Below, piece after piece: positions 4,001 to 60,500 of a stretch of 64,000 nucleotides of DNA (the first letter of the stretch is position 1; each line of letters opens with the position of its first letter). The notes beneath the pieces were generated by a model. That model saw only the letters and a list, made by a program, of their open reading frames with translations. It had not been told where the DNA came from and made no database searches. Origin of the DNA: Acanthamoeba castellanii str. Neff (taxonomy: Eukaryota > Discosea > Longamoebia > Acanthamoebidae). Location: positions 174,729-238,728 of the forward strand of contig NW_004457342.1 of assembly GCF_000313135.1 (NCBI RefSeq). The letters run 5' to 3'. A program made the translations under genes and the position numbers.

Positions 4001-7000
4001 TTCGACCCCGCGGCGGGCGACGCCTCCACGCCGCGAGACGAACTCTACATGTACGTAACTAACGACCCCCGTAACAGTGTGGCCCGACGATCTGGGCTCA
4101 CACCAACGTTTCGTCGTGTGTGTGTGTGACGTGTGCGATGCCAGGCAAGTGGAGCGGCTGGCGGCGGGCCGAGGCGAACCGCCCACGGGCGGCGGGGGCA
4201 GGCGCTACTTCAGCCTCTATCTCACCCCCGACACGAGCGGACCCTACGCCGCGCTCAACTCCCCCCGAAGTCGGTGCGTTCAGTCTCCAGACCAAACCTC
4301 GACCGAGGCCCGGCGAGCCTTCGCGAAGCGCTGGTGCTGATATGGTGGTACTGGTGACCGGCCCAACAGAAAATCGGCCGAGCTTGTGCGCGAGTCCGAG
4401 CAGATCACTCCGCGCATGAGGTCCAAGTCCGTAGCGGCGGGCGATTCAGAGAGCGCCGGTTCTCTCACGGGTACCCTCGTCTGGGTTTAGGTTATTTTTT
4501 ATTATTTTTTATTATTTATTTTAAATGGCTGTCGGACAAGTGCTGACGCGTGGACTACGAAACATACGCAGCGCGGGCGCGTGCCGAAAGCCAAAGCCAA
4601 AGCACACCCCGGCAGGTGAAGGTTGTGCCGAAACTGCCGCCGAACCACGGCCGGGTGGTGGCCAACATCTACAAGCTCCCGCGACCAAAGGCATCGCCCA
4701 AGCCTGTACGCCTCCCTCGTGCTTACTCGTGTTGTTTCTGTTCGTTGACACGACCAACGACCAACGACACAGGTGCCGTTGTCTCCGCGCATGCCGATCG
4801 TGCTGACCAACTCGCGCGGCAAGGGCGGCAAGCACTGGCTGCCGCGATGGGGCAGCGGCGGTGCTGGCGCCGGCGGTGGCGCCGGCGGCTCGCTCGATTT
4901 TGAAAACCCGCTCCACCGCGCCAGCGATTCGTGGGACGAAGATGACTACACCGAAGACGACGACACCATCACCACCTGCTCCTCCAAGCCGGGGGAGAGC
5001 GACTCGGAGAGCCTGGAAGACGACGACGAGACCCAGTCGTTCGACGACGACGACGAGCTGAGCCAACGCACCGAGGGTGGCCTGTCGGCGGCCGACCTGA
5101 GCGAGGTGGGGAGCGACTGCATCAGCGTGCGGAGCGACGGCGACGAGGCCACCGAGGAGGCCTTTGATGACGACGACTTTGCGGCGACGACGGACGACTT
5201 TGCGATGACGGCGGCGACCGATGACGACACCGTCGGCGGGGCGTCGGCGGGGTCGCCGGCCGGCAGCAGCATCAGCGACCCGGGGGCCGCGACGCACTCC
5301 TCGGCCAAGGCGCCGGCGAAGAAGGGCAAGCGGAGCAGCGGGAGTGTCGACAGAAAGAGGTCGCACAAGGAGGAAAAGCAGCCGAAGAAGGAAAAGAAGA
5401 GGGAAAAGAAGCATAGAGAGAAGGAGAAGGAGAAGAAGGAGGAGAAGGAGCGGAAGAGGGACGTCGCGACGTCCATCGGCCACCATCACGCTCCTCCTTC
5501 GAAGCAGCGGAGCACCTCCAAGGCCGAGCGCGACGGCAAGCCCGCCATCACGCGGAAGCGGTCCTCGCTGCGGCTGTCGACCACCTACGGCAAGGTCTTT
5601 GCCGTCATGGAGGGGTCCGGCCCAGACACCATCGAGCAACACGCGGCGACGGCTTCCGGGCCGCACGCCGACTCGTCGATGACGTCATCATTGTCATCGT
5701 CGTCGTCGTCTACGGTGGGCTCCTCGATGATGGCCTCGTCGTCGGGTTCGGGCGTGCGGCCGCGCCGAGGGACCGGCTGCTACATTGCGCCGCCCTCCTC
5801 GCTGGCCAACCTGCGCGATGACAACGGAGGAGCCGCCGGCCCTGCACAGCCGACCGCTGGCGGCAGCTCGGGCGTTGTGGCGGCTGCCGTAGCGGACCAC
5901 GAGACCAAGTCCACCAAGCTCGACGTGCACCCGCGGCGAGGCGCCAAGGTCGACACCATCAACAACAACAGCCACATCGGCGGCGGCGGCGGCGGCAGCA
6001 CCATTCGCGCGCCATTGTCATCGGGCTCGGCCATCCACGTCAGCAGCTCGTCGACGGTGCCGACCGAGGCGAGCGACGCCGGTGTTGTTGGGCCGCCGCC
6101 GCCGGTGGCCGGAGAAAGCGGCCACCACCCGGGTGGTGGCGGCACGGTGCGGAAGCACAAGGACCTGACGCAGCAGCTGCACCGGGAGCTCAGAGAGAAG
6201 GGCGAGCGCAACGAGCAGGCCAAGGTCAAGGAGTTCAAGCACAGCCTCCACCGCGAGCTCGAGGAGCGGCGCGAGAGCGAGAAGAAGCTGCGCGCCCGGC
6301 AGATCCGCGAGCGCCTCCATTCAGAGCTGCGCGAGCTCGCCGGCGGCGGCGGCGGCATGGCCGACAGCGACGACGGCAGCGCCGTCGCGCACCACCACAA
6401 GGGCGGCAGCAAGGCCTCATCGTCGTGGTTGTCGTCGTCGCAGCCGGCGCCCAAGGCCAGGGAGGGCGCCGGCCCGTCATCGACCACCGCGACCAAGGAC
6501 CAGTCGTCGTCGCTGCCGCGATGGCGCCGGCCCTTCTTCACCGCCCAGTCGCGCTCCGCGCCCTTCAGCTCCTCCTCGTCCATCACACCGCTCACCTCCC
6601 CACCCGTCCCGCTCTCTTCATCCTCTTCTTCTTGCTCTACCATCTCACCATCCTCCTCCTCCTATTCCTCCACGTCTTCCTCCTCCTCGTCTTCTTCATC
6701 ATCGCCACCATCACCGGCGAGAAAAGGCAGCGGGAGCTACGCGATGAAGAGTTTCTTCCGCCACTCGAGCGACCTGGGCGGCAGCGACGGAGCGACGGCG
6801 ACGTCGACGCAGTCCGCCGCCGCCGGTGGTGGTGGAGGGTCGGGTCGGGTCAAGGCGCACTCCCGGAAGCGGAGCGTGGGCCAGGGCAGCCTCTTCTGGC
6901 GGGAGCTCCTCCACCGCGAGATCCGCTCGACCGCCGCCCCGTCCACCTCCCCCGCCGACGACTCTGAGCCCCAGCAGCAGCAGACCTCAGCCGGCTCCAC

Positions 7001-51494: not shown

Positions 51495-52137
51495 CCTTTT
51501 TCGTCTGCCGTTCTGACGCACCTCTTTCGAATACTGAAAATGCGGAGGCCAATTTTCCGGAGTTTACACCCGATGGCTATTTCTGAATGTTGGGAATGCA
51601 GACGAGATGTTGTGAACAACAATCTTCTAGTGCAGTCCTCCTTGCCGTGTGTCTCCACAGTGTGTTTTCTCACATTTACTCGGTGCAACATTAATGCGTC
51701 AAGGACGAGCGCTTGTACCGCATCCGTTGCTTGTTCTTGTGGTGGCGTGCGCATGCTGTACGGCTCAGTCGGTCTGATCCACCTTTTGGCCGTGTAACCA
51801 GCGCGATCGCCGGAGTGGGGTGGTGGCCTCCTGGTGGTGGACACCCTCTTCCTCGTCCTCCTCATGCCGGCAACGTGACATGTGTCGTTGTTGTCAATCC
51901 TCATCAGATATGGTGCTACGATGAGGTGGTGTAGGAGCTTCTTCGGACCCGGCACGCAGCCGACGCAAGGATTGGGCGGCGCAAGCGGCAGCACAGCGAG
52001 GAGGACGCCGAACATGGCGACGCAGACAGTCGACACATAATGGTCGCGCACCTGGCGCGCAACGTTGGTTACACCATCAAAGCAAACAACAACAACAACA
52101 TCTAACAACATCAAAACAGTAAAACAACACCTGCCCA

Positions 52138-52308
52138 AGGCTGTGCAAGAAGGGCCTGCACGATGGCCGCTTGACCCTCCGACGCAGCGAGCAAGAGCGG
52201 CGTCTTTGCGCCCATGCCAGCTGTCGTGGCGTCGGCTCCCTTGGACAACAGGAATGTCGCCGCGTCTGCCAGGCCGCCGAGTGTCGAGCGGTGAACGTTT
52301 GCCAGACA
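52138..52308 (-). pseudogene. Ankyrin-repeat fragment
   Basis: Minus-strand frame encoding one and a half ankyrin repeats: LADAATFLLSKGAD, then AKTPLLLAASEGQAAIVQAL. It sits alone between the glycosyltransferase start (51494) and the next gene's stop (52571). A tiny upstream piece encoding KGAPVE (about 52430-52447) between AACTAACAG and GTGAGC may be another exon. No start or credible C-terminal exon was found within 51495-52570, so it is either a decayed gene or a small gene whose exons I cannot join. Confidence 0.4.
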
Positions 52309-52570
52309 CGCCCGTGTTACTTAATTGCCCATCAGAACGGCAGCCAAGCAATGCGGGGCCTGTGTACCCATGTGCCCGTTCCACGAGTCGGCCATCTGCG
52401 GCGTCTGCATCTCTGTGTTGCTCACCTCCACCGGCGCCCCTTTCTGTTAGTTGGGCCAAACAACAACAACAATGCTTCGGTTATCATGGTGGCGCTTATG
52501 TTTTGCCCTCCCCGCACGAAGCCGCACAAAAAGATCGTAATACTATGTTGAATTGGTTAAAAAATGGGGT

Positions 52571-55500
52571 TCAGGTTCGGCCAACGGAGCTGTACATCTG
52601 GCACAGCCCCACAGACAGGAAGCGGCGCAGCATCGTTCCCTGTTTTGGTTTGATGGTAAGCAAGAGAAAACGAAGAGAAAAAACGAATATAAAAATGGCA
52701 TTTTCGACCGAAAGGGGGGAAGTGCGAGGGTGCAGCGTACGGTGTGGTCGTCAGTGAGGGCCAGCTTCCACACCTTGTCCAGGTGCACGGTGAGCGTGTC
52801 GCGGATGGTGCCCAGCGCCTCCTCCGCAGCCACGTAATCGGGCGGCGGAGTGGGCGTGTATCGGCTCATGCTGGCCTGGTAGTTCATCGCGTCGTGAATC
52901 GCCTCCTCGTCCTGTATGCCACGTCACGCTTAGCACCCGTGCGTGTTGCGTGTTGTGTGATGTGTGATATGTTGCGTTGCGTGCGCTGCTGCCTGTTGTG
53001 TGCTGTGCGTTGGGGTTGCGCGTGCATACGGTGAGTGCGGCCACGTAGGCCTGAAGCAGTCGCTGGTTGGAATCGTTGATGAAGGCGTTGAACGCCTTCA
53101 TGTGCTCCTCCTTGCGCCCGTCGAACGGCACGTCGTTGGCCAGGTTCTGTATCAGCTTCGTCACCAACAGCTGCACACGGCGCGTCGTATCGTTCACTGC
53201 ATCGTTTTGACAGTACACTCGATTAGGTGTGTGCGCGTGCGTGCGTGCTGTTGTGCGTGCGTGGAATGCGCAGGAATGTGCGTACCGCCGGACGACGACA
53301 GGATGGCGGGGGTGAGTAGGCGGAGGAAGAGGAGGTTGAGGATTCCCGACTGCTGCATCTGCGGCCATCGCTTGCCCACCTCCTCGCCCACCATGTGCAG
53401 CACTCGCCGGATGCCTCTGCCAATTTTCAGCCCATCGAGTCACGTTAGCCGTGCGGTGCGGGCGGTGCGGGCGGCGCGGGAGTGATGGAGGGAGTACAGA
53501 GGGCAATCGTCGGCCGAGCGACAGGTCTGCTCGAGGAAGGCCTGGGAGAGTTCGAGTAGGACGGCGGTGTGCTTGTCCGACGGGGCGCGGTTGGGGAGGA
53601 CTTCGAGCTTGGCCGCCACGGCGCTGGCGATCCGGGCCATCAGCGGGTCCACCAGCTCGCGCACGTACTCGCGGCCGGCACCGCTGATGTAGAGGCTCAG
53701 CACGCGCGTGCCCACCGTCTCGCTGCGCATCAGCACGCCCTCCTCGTTGGCCGATCGGACATCCAACTCGATCGCCTTCTGCAGGAAGTTGATCGTTTTG
53801 CCTGCACACGACACACCACCGCACACGTACAGTTGTGAGTGAGCTTGCCCTTTCGTTGTTTACAAAGAACCGCAGGCGAGCATGCGATACCATGGTAGTT
53901 GTAGAACTCGAGGAGGGCGTGGACCAGCTTGTCGACGCTGGACTCGGCGTAGGTCAGGTTGAGCAGCTCCATCACCAGCTTGAAGTTTCGTCGCGAGTCG
54001 TCCAGCAAAAGCTGTCACACATATACACAACACCCGGCTTGAGTCCTGTGTCGCGTGCGCGATGTGTACGTGCGGTGCGGTGGTACCTCCTGGAAGGCGT
54101 TCTCGAGGCGCTCGCGGCCATGCAGTGAGAGGGGACCGGCGGGAGGGATGGCGTGCTGGGGCGACGCCCGCAGGCTGCGTCCCTCCGAACGCGGCGTCTC
54201 CTCGTCGCTCACCGACCGGTCGCTCAGGCGCGCGTCGGGGATCACCCCGCGTCGCCCCGGCTTGGGCTTGGCCGCGTGAAGCTTGTGGTCGCCGGGCACC
54301 AGGGGCAGCTGCTGCTCGTCGTCGATTACCAGCAGCTCGTCGCTGTCCGAGCAGCTCTTGCTACGCTTCCGCCCGCTGTCGGGTTTGCCGGGGTCGTCCA
54401 CCGAGCTCGTCGCGGAGCTGTTGGTGCTCTGCCCGCTGCTGCCGATGAGCCCGTTGCCGGCGGCGCTGAGTAACGCGCGGAGCGGCTGCGGGCGCGGCGC
54501 CGACTTGCCGTTGATGCCGCCGGTTGTGTGGAGCAGGCCGAGGCCCTTGTCCTTGTCGGCCTTGGTAGCCTTGGGCGAGTAGGAGCTCTTCTGCTTGGAC
54601 CCGAACAGTTTGTCGAGCAGCGATGATGACGTCACGGGGCTCCGCAGGGGTGCGGGCGGAGAGGCTGCGGTGGTCGGCGGCGGGCTATGCTGCGCGGGCG
54701 GGCGGTCCCTGGAGTTGGACTTGAGCGTGGGCAGCGCCGAGGCCGACGACGACACGGCGGAGAACGGGCAGCCGCCGGCCGACGACGGCCGGCGCGTGTG
54801 CGTGTGTGTCGAATCGCTGTTGGACTGTGGAATGCGGGGCGACAGCACGAAGCTGTTGAGCGGTGACGGCGGCGGCACTGCGGGCATGTGCCCGTGCGGC
54901 GAGGGCGGCGATGACTCCGATAAGGGGAAGGTGACGGACGAGAGTGGGACCCCCAGGCCGGGCAGGTTGACTGAGCTGTGCTGGATGGGCGTGGGCGACG
55001 ATGACGAGGCGTCGGACGACTGGAGCGAGACGTACGACGAGTCGGAGGCGAGGGTGATGTCGGACGAGGAGGAGGAGAGCGACGAGGCGAGGGTGGAGGC
55101 GGCGTCGGTGTGCTGGGGGTCGCTGGCGTGCAGGTTGGCGTCCTTTGCGTGGCCCATGAAGAGGGCGTCCTTGGTCGGGTCGTGTGCGGCAAAGTCGCTC
55201 AGGTTGAGGCCGAAGTAGTCCAGGTCCTCGAGCGACGTGAGCAGCGGCGACCCGACGAAGCACATCGATCGCAGCATCGGCTGCCAGATCAGCTGCGTTG
55301 CATGATGATGGATCACATCAGCACCGCACGACACGACACACGCACACACGACGCACGCGCGCGCGTGTGACAAGGTACCTGGCCCTTGAGCTTGAGCGAC
55401 TTGTAGTCATCGTAGGCGTGCTTGAAGACGAAGACCTCGGTCTTGCCCCGATTGGTCAGGAACTTCCAATCGGTAAACGAGGCCCTCGCGGGCGACACCA

Positions 55501-57102
55501 GCTCGAAGAAGTTGGTGACCTGGTCGCCGACCATCATCGGAACCAACCGCGACAGCGACTGCTCACACAATAAAAAGACTTAATTATTATAATGATAATT
55601 ATCATTTGCAGATAAATAGAATTATTTGAGGAATTAAATCTTAAAAATGTGAATTATGAACTGGTTGTGGTGTGGATGAGCCGGACCTTGCCGCACTGGA
55701 GGATCTCCAGCTTTTGGTTGAATATGAAGTGGAAGGGGAAGGCCTTGTTGAGTCCCTGCGGGTCCAGGCCGTAGACGAGCGGCGTCGTGCTCACCGATTC
55801 ATCGAGCAACCTCTTCTTCGCAGACTGCGCGAACAACAACAACAACAACAACAACAGTGATGATGAGTTGGCGACTACAACGGTCAACCCACCCTAGGCC
55901 TAGCCGAGGATGGGGCGCGTACGCCGCTGATCTTCCACTTGACCGAAAAGACGTCCTCCTCGGCGCCCTTGTCGATCCACTTCTTTTGTTTGATCTTGAG
56001 GGCCGACAGCTGCAAGTGCTCCTCGCCGAGACCCTTGATGATTCCTGCAACACGCGCCACGCACGCATCAGTCGCGTGTGGCACGACACGACACGAGCAT
56101 TTGCTGGGAGAAATGTACCGACGACGAGAGGAGAAAGACCCTTGCGGGTCGGCACGCCGGACAGGTAGTGCAGCTGCATCTTGTTGGCCTTCTCCCTCGT
56201 AATTCGGAACGTGGGTGGTCGCATCTGGTTTGTTACAATAAAATTAGTGTAAAATAAAACTAAAAATAAATGCTGCAGGCACACCTCGGAGAAGTAGCCC
56301 ATCTTGATGTGTCCGTGCATGGTGTTGATGTTGGTGAGAATCTCCTTGAGCGAGTTGCCGGCGCTCGACAGCACTTTCCCGTAGGCCTGCAAGCGCGGAG
56401 CATTCAAAGGGGGACAAGCGTTAGCGAGCACTGAGATGAAATTGCAGCGTTAGCGTGCGCCGGGCGAGCGAGCGAGCCCGTACAGTCGACTTGACATAGA
56501 TGGGGAACCAGTAGCCAATAGCTTCAAGCAGCTCAGGCACGGTTGTGTTCAGCTCCTACGTCGGCGCAATACACAAAAAAACAGCACATAACATGTGGGT
56601 GAGTGCCAAGCACGCGGTTTCAGAGTACGCTGGCCGGCAGTGGGAACGCAACAAGCTGGGCCTGCCGTCACCGTGAACCGAGAGCCAGCCGCGTGTGCCG
56701 AGCTGGCTTGCAACAGGAACGCGCAAGAGGCCATGATTTGGAATAATAGAAATTGGCGCAGAATGGGGAGGCAATACGGAACTGAAGGAGACGTTGGGTC
56801 GGGGGGGGGGGAGAAGCATACCTGGGCGGCGACGGTGAGGAGGGTGTAGATGACTTGGTCGTCGTAGTTTTTGTTCTCCACAAAGTCCTGGGTTATGCCG
56901 GCCTTGGCCAGGAGGTCCAGCCATACGGCCTCGCCGAACTTCTTGAGCACCAAATCCTTCAACCAGGCCAGGCAGAAAACGTTATCGGAGCGAACAAGGC
57001 AAAGAACGAAAGCGGCAGCAAGAAAAAAGAGCGACACGACGGACGTGACCCCCCCAAATTGCGGGGTCCTACCTTGACGGTGGTAAAGATGAGGCCATAC
57101 AT
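52571..57102 (-). CDS. H-NOX + HNOBA + RasGAP fusion protein (heme gas sensor on a Ras GTPase-activating protein)
   Basis: Fifteen or so phase-compatible exons, about 1000 residues. ATG 57102 begins MYGLIFTTVK, the canonical H-NOX start, then DLVLKKFGEAVWLDLLAKAG. The proximal heme His lies in NINTMHGHI (as His105 of sGC beta1), then MRPPTFRI, LHYLSGVPTRKGLSPLVVG and IIKGLGEEH. HNOBA follows (about 55825-55190): FPFHFIFNQKLEILQCGK, KLKGQLIWQPMLRSMCFVGS, LNLSDFAAHDPTKDALFMG. After a 330-residue Ser/Pro linker comes RasGAP (about 54012-53030): VDKLVHALLEFYNYHGK, arginine-finger region GVLMRSETVGTRVLSLYISG, FLR-type motif LLFLRLLTPAILSSSG, and LIQNLANDVPFDGRKEEHMK. The final exon ends SVGRT, TGA 52573-52571. 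No cyclase domain exists. The inferred role is gas-dependent control of Ras-GTP hydrolysis. Confidence 0.9.
55829..55856 (-). repeat. Intronic (GTT)n / (AAC)n tract
   Basis: Nine CAA/AAC triplets on the plus strand just upstream, in gene sense, of the HNOBA exon acceptor (GTTCGCGCAG). Confidence 0.85.
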
Positions 57103-57561: not shown

Positions 57562-60500
57562 CTAGTCGCCCTTGATCATGGTGTAGATCCTCCTCACGAA
57601 CATCGACGTGCCGATGAAGCCGATCGCGCCTGGTGGGCGGAAGGGAGAGAAGAGAAAGGTGGGACGGGAATGCTGTGAGACAACCAATTGTATTGTGTTG
57701 CCAGAGAAAGGAAGGGGGAATTCCGTTCACGCACGGAGGGCCAAGGCACACAGAAGAACCAAAGGGAAAAAGAAGGAGACGCGTACCGCAGAGGGTCGCC
57801 AGTCCGAGGCAGAACATAGCCATGTAGCCAAAATAGAAAACTGTTTGGAAGAAGCCCGACATCTTCGTCTTCATGTAGAAGTAGTACACGGAGTACAGGA
57901 AAACGTATCTGTGCGGGAAAAAGTCAGTCCAGGGGCCTGTCACGGAACGTGTAAGCCGAGAATTGCAGTCATACCCAGCAGTGGAGGCAGCAGAGAGGAA
58001 GGAGGTCCACTGCCAGCGATAGTCTTCCGAGTTGAGCAAGAAGTACGTAGACACGATGGTCACGCAAACTGCGGTAAACGAGGGATGAGGCACTGTGCCA
58101 CATGACCAGCACAGCGGGGGACGAGCTCGTACCGGTGACGATGATCAAGATCACGTAGACCAAGAGCATGAAACCGTAGACGTAGTAGTACTTGTAGAAC
58201 GAGGTGAAGATGAAGTACATCTCGATGAAGATGGAACCGAAGGGGAGGACGCCGCCGAGCAGGATGTGCACCCACGGCTGCAAGTACCACCTCTTCTCGG
58301 GAATCTGGCGGGGCACCTGGTTGATGCGCACCTTCTCCGGGGTACCTGCATTGTGGGACTTGAGTTCCATTCTTCTCTCCTTGGGAGCAGAGCGACAGGG
58401 AAGTTGTAGGCGCGTACCGTTCCAGTTCTTGCCGACGACAGTGCCGACCAGAGTGAGCGGCAGCGAGATGCACGACCAGATGGCCAAGACGGCGATCTAG
58501 CGAATTCCATAAAATGTGACGCACGGGTGAGCGCGACCAAGCGAGCGCGACCAAGCGACAGGCATAGGGAACGCACCAGAGTGCCTAGCGGGATGTAGTT
58601 GAGCGAGCCGTAGGAAAGCGCGATCGTGTTGAGCATGAAAGCGATGGAGAAGGCAATGCCGGGCAGGAAGCTAGCCGTCACGAACATGCCTGTTTGGTAT
58701 CCATCGACAGTCAGATAAGCTGAAAGATCATTCTTCCATCGCGTTTGTGGCTGCGTACACTTGATCCACTTCTTGCCGCCGTTTCGGGCGTAGTAGCCAC
58801 CGCCTCCGTAACCAGCGATGAAGGAGGTTAGCGCGTAGCAAACGATGAAAGCAGTCACGACGGTTCCCCTCTGGGCGTAGTAGGTGCCAAGAGCAGCAAG
58901 GCAGAGCAAGCAGAAGACCAGGATGACCAACTGGTGGCCTATAGGAAGAAGGAGGGCGGTAAGAATAGACCAGCCTACAAGTTGCAACGAGCGCGACGAG
59001 CAGCGTACCAGTGCCCACGAGAGCGGAGAACAGAAGGAGACGGGGAGGCGAGCGGAAGACGTCGCCCTTGATCTGCTTCCAGCCGGACTCGTCACCAACG
59101 TCCTCGTCCCTGTTGTTGGGGTGGAGGGGAGGTGAACAAGATGCACATCACGTTTGCAACGGACCATGGCATGAAGCGTATCGATAAGGAGGGAGACCCT
59201 ACCTGTCGGCATCTTCGTCGTCGAGCTTGCCGAAGCGGGCATAATCCCTCTTGAGGGTCCTCATCAAGATGAGCGACACGAGGCCAACAAGGAAGATGAC
59301 CATCATGAAGGAGTTGAAGATGGAGAACCAGTGGATCTATGATGTACACGCCAAGAGCAACGAGGAATCAGTGAGCGGTGATAAGAGGGAAAGAGGTCGA
59401 AAAGAAAGGCCAAGGTACCTGGTGCTCGAAGAAGCTCTTGTCGAGGTATTTCCTGAATCGGTCATCGAAGGAGGTGCTGGTCTCCTGCCAGTTCACGGAG
59501 AAGGTGAACTGGAGAGGCGAGCCGGCCTCAAGAACAACAGGGTTCTCCGAGGTAAGGTTGACCTCGATGACCTAAGCAAGCGTAATGAAGGAGCATAGTA
59601 GATGGTTTAGGCGTTTGCTTTGTGAGGAGCGAGCATAAAGTGTCTACGTACCCTGTCGCCGTTCCAGGAGAGGGAGAACTTCTGGTGAGTGTATATGAAG
59701 ACCTTCTTCTCACCGGCATCGTCCTCGTAAGACTCGCCAACCATTCCCCACACGGGAAGATCGTCCAGGTACATCTGATCTACAGGGGCCAAGAAAGAAA
59801 GGAGATGAAGCGACGAAGTTAAAGAGTGAAGAACACCACCATGCTAAAGCCTGGCCTTGCCGATCTAAGATGAGAAGAATCGCTGAGTTGACGTACACCA
59901 GTACTGCTCGAGGATGGCCTCCCTGAACTCCTCGTACTCAGACTTCGTTAACGACTTGGAGCAAATAGGCTTCCTCTCGATGTCCCCTACGCGAATGGAT
60001 GAGCTCGCACGTTTACCCCCCCCCGCAAACTGACTGTCATCCAGGTGTGGCAGTGCGTACTCTTGAAGAAAATCTCGACCATGCTCTTGATCAGATCGTA
60101 TCCGACAAGCGCTTCGCCAAGACCCTCTGTAAAAGGACGATCCGTATGAGACTCAAAGAAATCGAAGTGATCACTTCAATTGAACAAGGGAAAGATCGAC
60201 CTGTGTCAGAGTGGATCAATTTGTCTGGGTGGCAGAAAGGCAGAGAGTAGTAGGGGTAGGTCTCCTGCGGGTTGGGGAAGGGACCCACTTTGTTCATCCA
60301 CAAGTAGACCTCCTCACCATCCTCGTACTGTTTTGCACACAAACAAGTGCGTGAGTTAAGATCGTGGCGCACCCAAGAAGGGGATCCAAATTGGGACTTG
60401 ACAAGTCTTCATCGCTCCTGTTCGTTCTCCAAGCTCCCTCCTTTTGCTGTTTACGTTCTTCTTGCCTCCTTCTTCTGCCATCCATCTTCCTTTAATTGGC

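Follow-up and report, generated by a model that had tools for sequence, protein, structure and literature searches.

The H-NOX-HNOBA sensor of animals is known through cyclic GMP (cGMP). In soluble guanylate cyclase (sGC) the signal passes via a coiled coil (relevant passages of PMC8196705), and a 2013 genome paper reported Acanthamoeba H-NOX proteins without cyclases (H-NOX passages of PMC4053784). Here we analysed a window, meaning the whole 64,000 nucleotide stretch of Acanthamoeba castellanii str. Neff contig NW_004457342.1 (positions 174,729 to 238,728), and describe a minus-strand gene in it that joins H-NOX and HNOBA domains to a RasGAP, the domain of Ras GTPase-activating proteins (GAP). 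The encoded protein may act as a Ras off-switch regulated by nitric oxide (NO).

The window protein resembles sGC beta-1 in the order H-NOX then HNOBA/PAS, in the MYG start and in the proximal His; residues 1-343 can be aligned with it (E-value 5.3e-37) and the folds match. It differs in carrying a RasGAP in place of the cyclase, in a three-residue insertion in the YxSxR motif and in having no coiled coil seen in the predicted structure. The solved chains of Nostoc Alr2278, about 190 residues long, are H-NOX only, whereas the window protein has three domains. Its RasGAP is about 20% identical to the GAP-related domain of neurofibromin and to p120GAP, and, unlike those proteins, it stands next to a heme-sensor half, whose domains are the only others in the window protein to score above cut-off in Pfam.

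One spliced gene with three domains

The gene model was assembled by hand ahead of every database search, using GT-AG introns with consistent phases. Joining 15 exons on the minus strand (57102-52571) gave 3054 nucleotides in a single frame with one stop, encoding 1017 amino acids. The start and end bases of the model, 57102 and 52571, are exactly the limits given in an earlier reading of the DNA from its letters alone (the sequence-only reading), which had placed H-NOX, HNOBA and RasGAP in one phase-consistent exon chain; its linker exon, put at about 54088-55300, is exon 9 (54087-55292), and the next exon spans 53891-54011. No in-frame ATG was found upstream before a stop in the first exon, and the frame opens at MYGL. 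A protein search returned the database protein P0001 (5 member sequences, 11 contigs), which is 100% identical over 100% of the hand-made protein. Because the unspliced genomic frames of the fusion gene are interrupted by introns, the identical joins in P0001 support the splicing; its record is silent on whether it came from a transcript or from a splice-aware predictor. All three domains are also present in P0002 (849 amino acids on a contig of at most 2625 nucleotides, leaving room for introns of at most 75) and in P0005 (756 amino acids on at most 2437 nucleotides, leaving at most 166). The three-domain fusion is confirmed as one real spliced gene, and the single exon chain of the sequence-only reading stands on the 15-exon model and the identical P0001.

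Pfam profiles scored on the 1017 residue protein gave HNOB (PF07700) at residues 2-159 with an E-value of 5.5e-36 (124.4 bits against a cut-off of 25.5), HNOBA (PF07701) at 7.4e-27, above its cut-off, and RasGAP (PF00616) at 4.3e-15 (56.6 bits against a cut-off of 28.3). The profile scan had been proposed as a check together with the original assignment, and none of the three domains failed to score. Fold comparison of the predicted structure matched Nostoc H-NOX, a Nostoc PAS domain and p120GAP, in agreement with a PAS fold for HNOBA and a GAP fold for the C-terminal domain. The bacterial and archaeal NCBIfam library gave no match to the fusion protein, as expected. The cyclase was absent, as had been claimed from the letters: no cyclase domain matched the 1017 residues in Pfam at E-values up to 1. 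A whole-genome scan for PF00211, run at exon level so that its count is a lower bound, gave 54 matches, with zero on C75 and C152, the contigs of the related genes described below, and the sole match on the contig of the fusion gene about 59 kb away. A cyclase hidden in the linker or beyond the GAP was considered and rejected: none scored, an ankyrin-like frame follows the stop, and the relatives end at about the same C-terminus.

The H-NOX set of PMC4053784 very likely includes the window gene. The word RasGAP is absent from the main text of that paper, and its H-NOX passages name no fusion partners. In the open-access literature, subscription papers being outside the scope, no paper describing an H-NOX/HNOB-RasGAP fusion was found; PMC10933270, which combines H-NOX and GTPase-activating protein, has an unrelated subject in the passages concerned. 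The view that the architecture was undescribed holds in that no open-access paper describes it and is qualified in that Acanthamoeba H-NOX proteins were already stated to have no cyclase in 2013 (H-NOX passages of PMC4053784). As far as open-access searches go, the sensor-to-RasGAP protein is undescribed, while the missing cyclase was known and the sequences were in databases.

Relatives and history of the fusion

A profilin gene of the genome assembly matches the PDB chain profilin II (1f2k, from Acanthamoeba castellanii) with full identity along 125 residues, in keeping with an Acanthamoeba source. An HNOB scan of the whole genome (38.4-Mb assembly, 250 contigs) gave 7 exon-level matches, which belong to at least four genes. 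Two of these H-NOX genes lie in tandem on C152 and encode proteins of 834 and 887 amino acids, each from 17 exons in a single frame and each with HNOB, HNOBA and RasGAP. The fourth (C75, about 4199-6538, minus strand) encodes H-NOX and HNOBA, contains a large insertion and has no RasGAP in its open frame. The C75 protein ends in KNTRCLLS, a CaaX-like C-terminus that resembles a prenylation box.

A search for other proteins with HNOB plus RasGAP had also been proposed, and eight three-domain members were found with the window gene counted; in the whole-protein and alignment searches, scoring was limited to the 7984 candidates with the most words in common. Three of the eight are from the window genome (P0001 included), two are from Balamuthia (P0003 and P0004) and the others are P0002, P0005 and P0014. 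Of two partial pieces, P0008 and P0009, only HNOBA scored, and by eye P0009 also appears to include the beginning of a RasGAP, finger Arg included. Database entries name both Balamuthia proteins for heme NO binding and include RasGAP in their Pfam listing. The longest contig is 399089 for both P0003 and P0004, and the two probably lie on one contig; the Balamuthia pair and the C152 tandem pair perhaps reflect repeated local expansion. P0014, a 918 amino acid frame on a contig no longer than 17 kb, has an Asn-rich linker and suggests that the fusion may extend to organisms other than Acanthamoeba and Balamuthia. Query residues 1-345 (H-NOX-HNOBA) returned 6 proteins, all with three domains and P0001 among them, and no sGC; because known sGC was not returned, this search does not amount to a census and gives no ground for calling the fusion absent from other organisms.

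Separate trees were built for the sensor halves and for the GAP halves, and the topologies were compared by eye. The trees were compatible: P0001 with P0002, the Balamuthia pair and the tandem C152 pair occur in both, and the Balamuthia pair joins the tandem C152 pair in both, with support of 96/96 in the sensor tree and 90/96 in the GAP tree. P0005 and P0014 were not firmly placed and sit on open forks, and in the GAP tree the branch of P0005 is very long. Introns were scored as shared when they fell within 2 alignment columns with equal phase. By this measure the window gene, with 14 introns, has 11 in common with each C152 paralogue in place and phase, the sensor side accounting for 7 of them and the GAP side for 4. 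Identity to the window protein ranged from 42 to 67% for H-NOX, 35 to 63% for HNOBA and 21 to 57% for RasGAP. Because the trees are compatible and introns are common on both sides of the joint, the simplest reading would be one fusion that took place before the member genes separated, with both halves retained since.

A candidate gas-regulated RasGAP

Residues were tabulated from an alignment of the eight three-domain members, with P0014, which lacks about the first 83 H-NOX residues, counted only beyond them. His103 aligns with the proximal His of sGC beta-1 and is found in 8/8 members, which agrees with the heme ligand picked out in the sequence-only reading. Pro117, Tyr133 and Arg140 are each present in all eight. 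No member (0/8) has a Tyr at the position aligned with what we take, from bacterial H-NOX work, to be the distal-pocket Tyr; the residue there is Leu in 7/8 and Phe in 1/8. In its H-NOX passages the 2013 genome paper likewise gave the distal Tyr as absent and took this as a sign that NO, and not O2, is sensed (PMC4053784). On the GAP side the arginine finger Arg763 and Arg871 of the FLR motif align with neurofibromin and both are kept in 8/8 members, consistent with the full RasGAP claimed at the outset. The FLR Leu is replaced by Phe in the two Balamuthia proteins. Lys896, Phe869, Pro875 and Asn919 are each found in 8/8, and position 902 (Ala902 in the window protein) is Ala in four members, Val in two and Met in two.

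Judged from these residues, each domain appears to keep most of what its known job requires. Because the parts retain most of the needed features we propose a RasGAP controlled by heme-bound NO, in which the gene would encode an NO-regulated Ras off-switch with an H-NOX-heme sensor, docking-type coupling and a C-terminal RasGAP; we give this reading a probability of roughly 0.58. The analysis shows a single spliced gene with three folds, catalytic residues and a heme ligand that are conserved, and a fusion retained in several lineages; that the protein binds heme and NO and acts as a GAP, and in which direction and how the two halves are coupled, is inferred. The N-terminal H-NOX would hold heme on His103 and bind NO (possibly carbon monoxide (CO), not O2), the HNOBA/PAS domain would relay the change or form a dimer interface, and the C-terminal RasGAP, of the neurofibromin/p120GAP kind, would stimulate a Ras-type GTPase to hydrolyse GTP. 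The sensor, or part of the linker, may in one gas state cover the GAP or hold it in place, and gas binding would free the GAP, or the reverse. Because a flexible linker seems to replace the sGC coiled coil, we favour a switch of this docking and release kind, or relocation of the protein, over rigid transmission. Exon-level matches genome-wide numbered 134 for RasGEF and 53 for RasGAP, and with both so plentiful a Ras network as target very likely exists.

In the predicted structure, residues 345-518 and 527-681 have a local confidence score (predicted local distance difference test, pLDDT) of less than 50. The only helices, all short, are those at 334-350 and 358-368 after the PAS domain and at 520-525 in the linker. 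The linker is shorter in the six other members whose linker ends could be set by pattern, with 105 residues for P0005 and between 138 and 278 for the remaining five. At about residues 519-531, in exon 9, the otherwise low-confidence linker contains the short segment LLDKLFGSK. A segment of this type was found by pattern in 6/8 full members and 1/2 partial members and was missed in P0003 and P0005; in P0003 a similar stretch, TLKTWFGSKL, can be made out by eye. For the five matching rows with settable linker ends, 0.4 to 1.9% of shuffled linkers had a match, and for P0008, parA and P0009, in which the linker end was not found, the values of 1.3, 16.5 and 9.8% are not comparable. Because the pattern was devised after viewing the sequences its recurrence is a lead only, and this hydrophobic segment could be a docking element. 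Exon 9 also holds GRKRSKSCSDSDELL, a basic-Ser cluster common to P0001, P0002 and P0008 that to us resembles a basophilic kinase site.

Several observations weigh against an NO-regulated RasGAP. The linker of 337 residues is Ser/Pro-rich and of low confidence, with no visible allosteric path, and it is the least conserved part, at 14-41% identity to the window protein in a poor alignment as compared to 35-67% for H-NOX and HNOBA. The predicted template modelling score (pTM) of the model is 0.38, which makes it uninformative on domain docking. No coiled coil is visible after the PAS domain in this model, which was made from an alignment of five sequences only and with no coiled-coil program run. 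Together with the long linker and with the interrupted YxSxR motif, this speaks against carrying the sGC mechanism over unchanged. A scan for the NO synthase domain PF02898 gave 0 matches in the genome (2/14 control genomes were positive; the search covered this one NO source, in an assembly that may not be complete). The gas may therefore be of external origin, for instance bacterial. The YxSxR motif is interrupted: Tyr, Ser and Arg follow one another in the window protein, but x-R is preceded by three residues that Nostoc H-NOX and sGC beta-1 do not have. The longer spacing is found in 8/8 members, that of P0005 being taken from the alignment, and the Ser in only 2/8 aligned members, while the Tyr and Arg of the motif are kept in all eight. 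In the C75 protein, which is outside the eight-member alignment, the motif Arg was read by eye at +7. Because the motif stabilises heme propionates, yet the lack of heme in sGC alpha is ascribed to an N-terminal extension entering the pocket (relevant passages of PMC8196705), the change may be taken as a warning that does not settle heme binding.

The alternative that survives best, although unlikely, is that the RasGAP is always active and the sensor is a localisation or assembly module, with gas shifting the site of the GAP and not its turnover, for instance through a putative PAS-PAS pairing with the C75 protein as in sGC. It would account for the long flexible linker with no visible transmission helix, and 2p04, a PAS fold match, is titled as a dimerized domain. 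The CLLS end of the C75 protein, which has H-NOX and HNOBA without RasGAP, would fit a membrane anchor by the CaaX rule, and this protein is a possible membrane-bound partner. However, the pairing of the proteins is conjectural, and the end of the C75 protein was read from a single open frame rather than a transcript.

We consider it distinctly improbable that the H-NOX binds heme but senses CO, redox state or heme supply instead of NO. The proximal His of all eight members and the lack of an NO synthase domain match are consistent with such a sensor, and the altered propionate-binding motif could shift affinity. However, the bacteria on which the amoeba feeds can be a source of NO. The missing distal Tyr was also read as NO over O2 sensing in the H-NOX passages of PMC4053784. 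A pseudo-H-NOX that retains the fold and has lost heme, leaving the sensor half as a scaffold, is very improbable. The altered YxSxR spacing in 8/8 members points towards it, and sGC alpha is a precedent for an H-NOX without heme, but the His ligand, Tyr and Arg are kept in 8/8 and the sGC alpha loss is laid to an N-terminal extension (relevant passages of PMC8196705), whereas the window frame begins at MYGL. An artefact in which a faulty gene model fused two adjoining genes was rejected as next to impossible, with nothing found in its favour and given the identical database protein P0001, all domains in P0002 and P0005 on contigs with little room for introns, two Balamuthia proteins with all three domains and the two phase-consistent C152 paralogues with domain order alike.

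If the parts of the NO-regulated RasGAP work as they suggest, the protein would be a direct gas-to-small-GTPase receptor that needs no cGMP. The sGC sensor would then be a portable module in eukaryotes, and NO would be compactly coupled to Ras. This suggests a role for the Acanthamoeba H-NOX proteins reported as cyclase-free in 2013, and the fusion is conserved and duplicated. More tentatively, and at somewhat less than even odds, the amoeba group that includes Acanthamoeba and Balamuthia, perhaps along with further amoebae, may possess a dedicated and duplicated heme-based NO-receptor family that inactivates Ras directly, with no second messenger. Through it a cell with no NO synthase domain match could respond to bacterial or biofilm NO by altering Ras-driven motility, feeding or encystment.

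Feature coordinates and neighbouring genes

Table 1. Features of the fusion gene, in window coordinates.
Feature	Position	Strand	Content and basis
Exon 1	57073..57102	-	MYGLIFTTVK, H-NOX start; gene model and identical P0001
Exon 2	56822..56956	-	H-NOX; gene model, Pfam HNOB
Exon 3	56484..56555	-	H-NOX; gene model
Exon 4	56285..56386	-	H-NOX including proximal heme-ligand His103; aligned to sGC beta-1 His
His103 codon	56315..56317	-	Sequence read through gene model
Exon 5	56119..56224	-	H-NOX; modified Y-x-S-(3 residue insertion)-x-R motif
Exon 6	55923..56044	-	H-NOX end; gene model
Exon 7	55687..55824	-	HNOBA (PAS-like) start; gene model, Pfam
Exon 8	55379..55558	-	HNOBA; gene model, Pfam
Exon 9	54087..55292	-	HNOBA end, Ser/Pro-rich linker (predicted disordered), first helix of GAP region; model pLDDT
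Exon 10	53891..54011	-	RasGAP region; gene model, fold match
Exon 11	53498..53801	-	RasGAP with arginine finger; gene model, neurofibromin alignment
Arg763 (arginine finger) codon	53725..53727	-	Aligned to Arg of neurofibromin LFRGNS
Exon 12	53286..53416	-	RasGAP, FLR motif (Arg871 codon 53320-53322); neurofibromin alignment
Exon 13	53030..53196	-	RasGAP; gene model, Pfam
Exon 14	52741..52911	-	GAP fold C-terminal helices; gene model, fold match
Exon 15 and stop codon	52571..52639	-	Same C-terminus in P0001; ends of relatives align

Directly downstream of the fusion gene, at 52111-52320 on the minus strand, is an ankyrin-like frame (PF00023, E-value 8e-5), which is not part of the fusion protein because P0001 stops at the same codon. 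The upstream neighbour, at 57972-59260 on the minus strand, encodes endomembrane protein 70 (EMP70); several short introns divide this gene, and PF02990 was matched in two of its frames.

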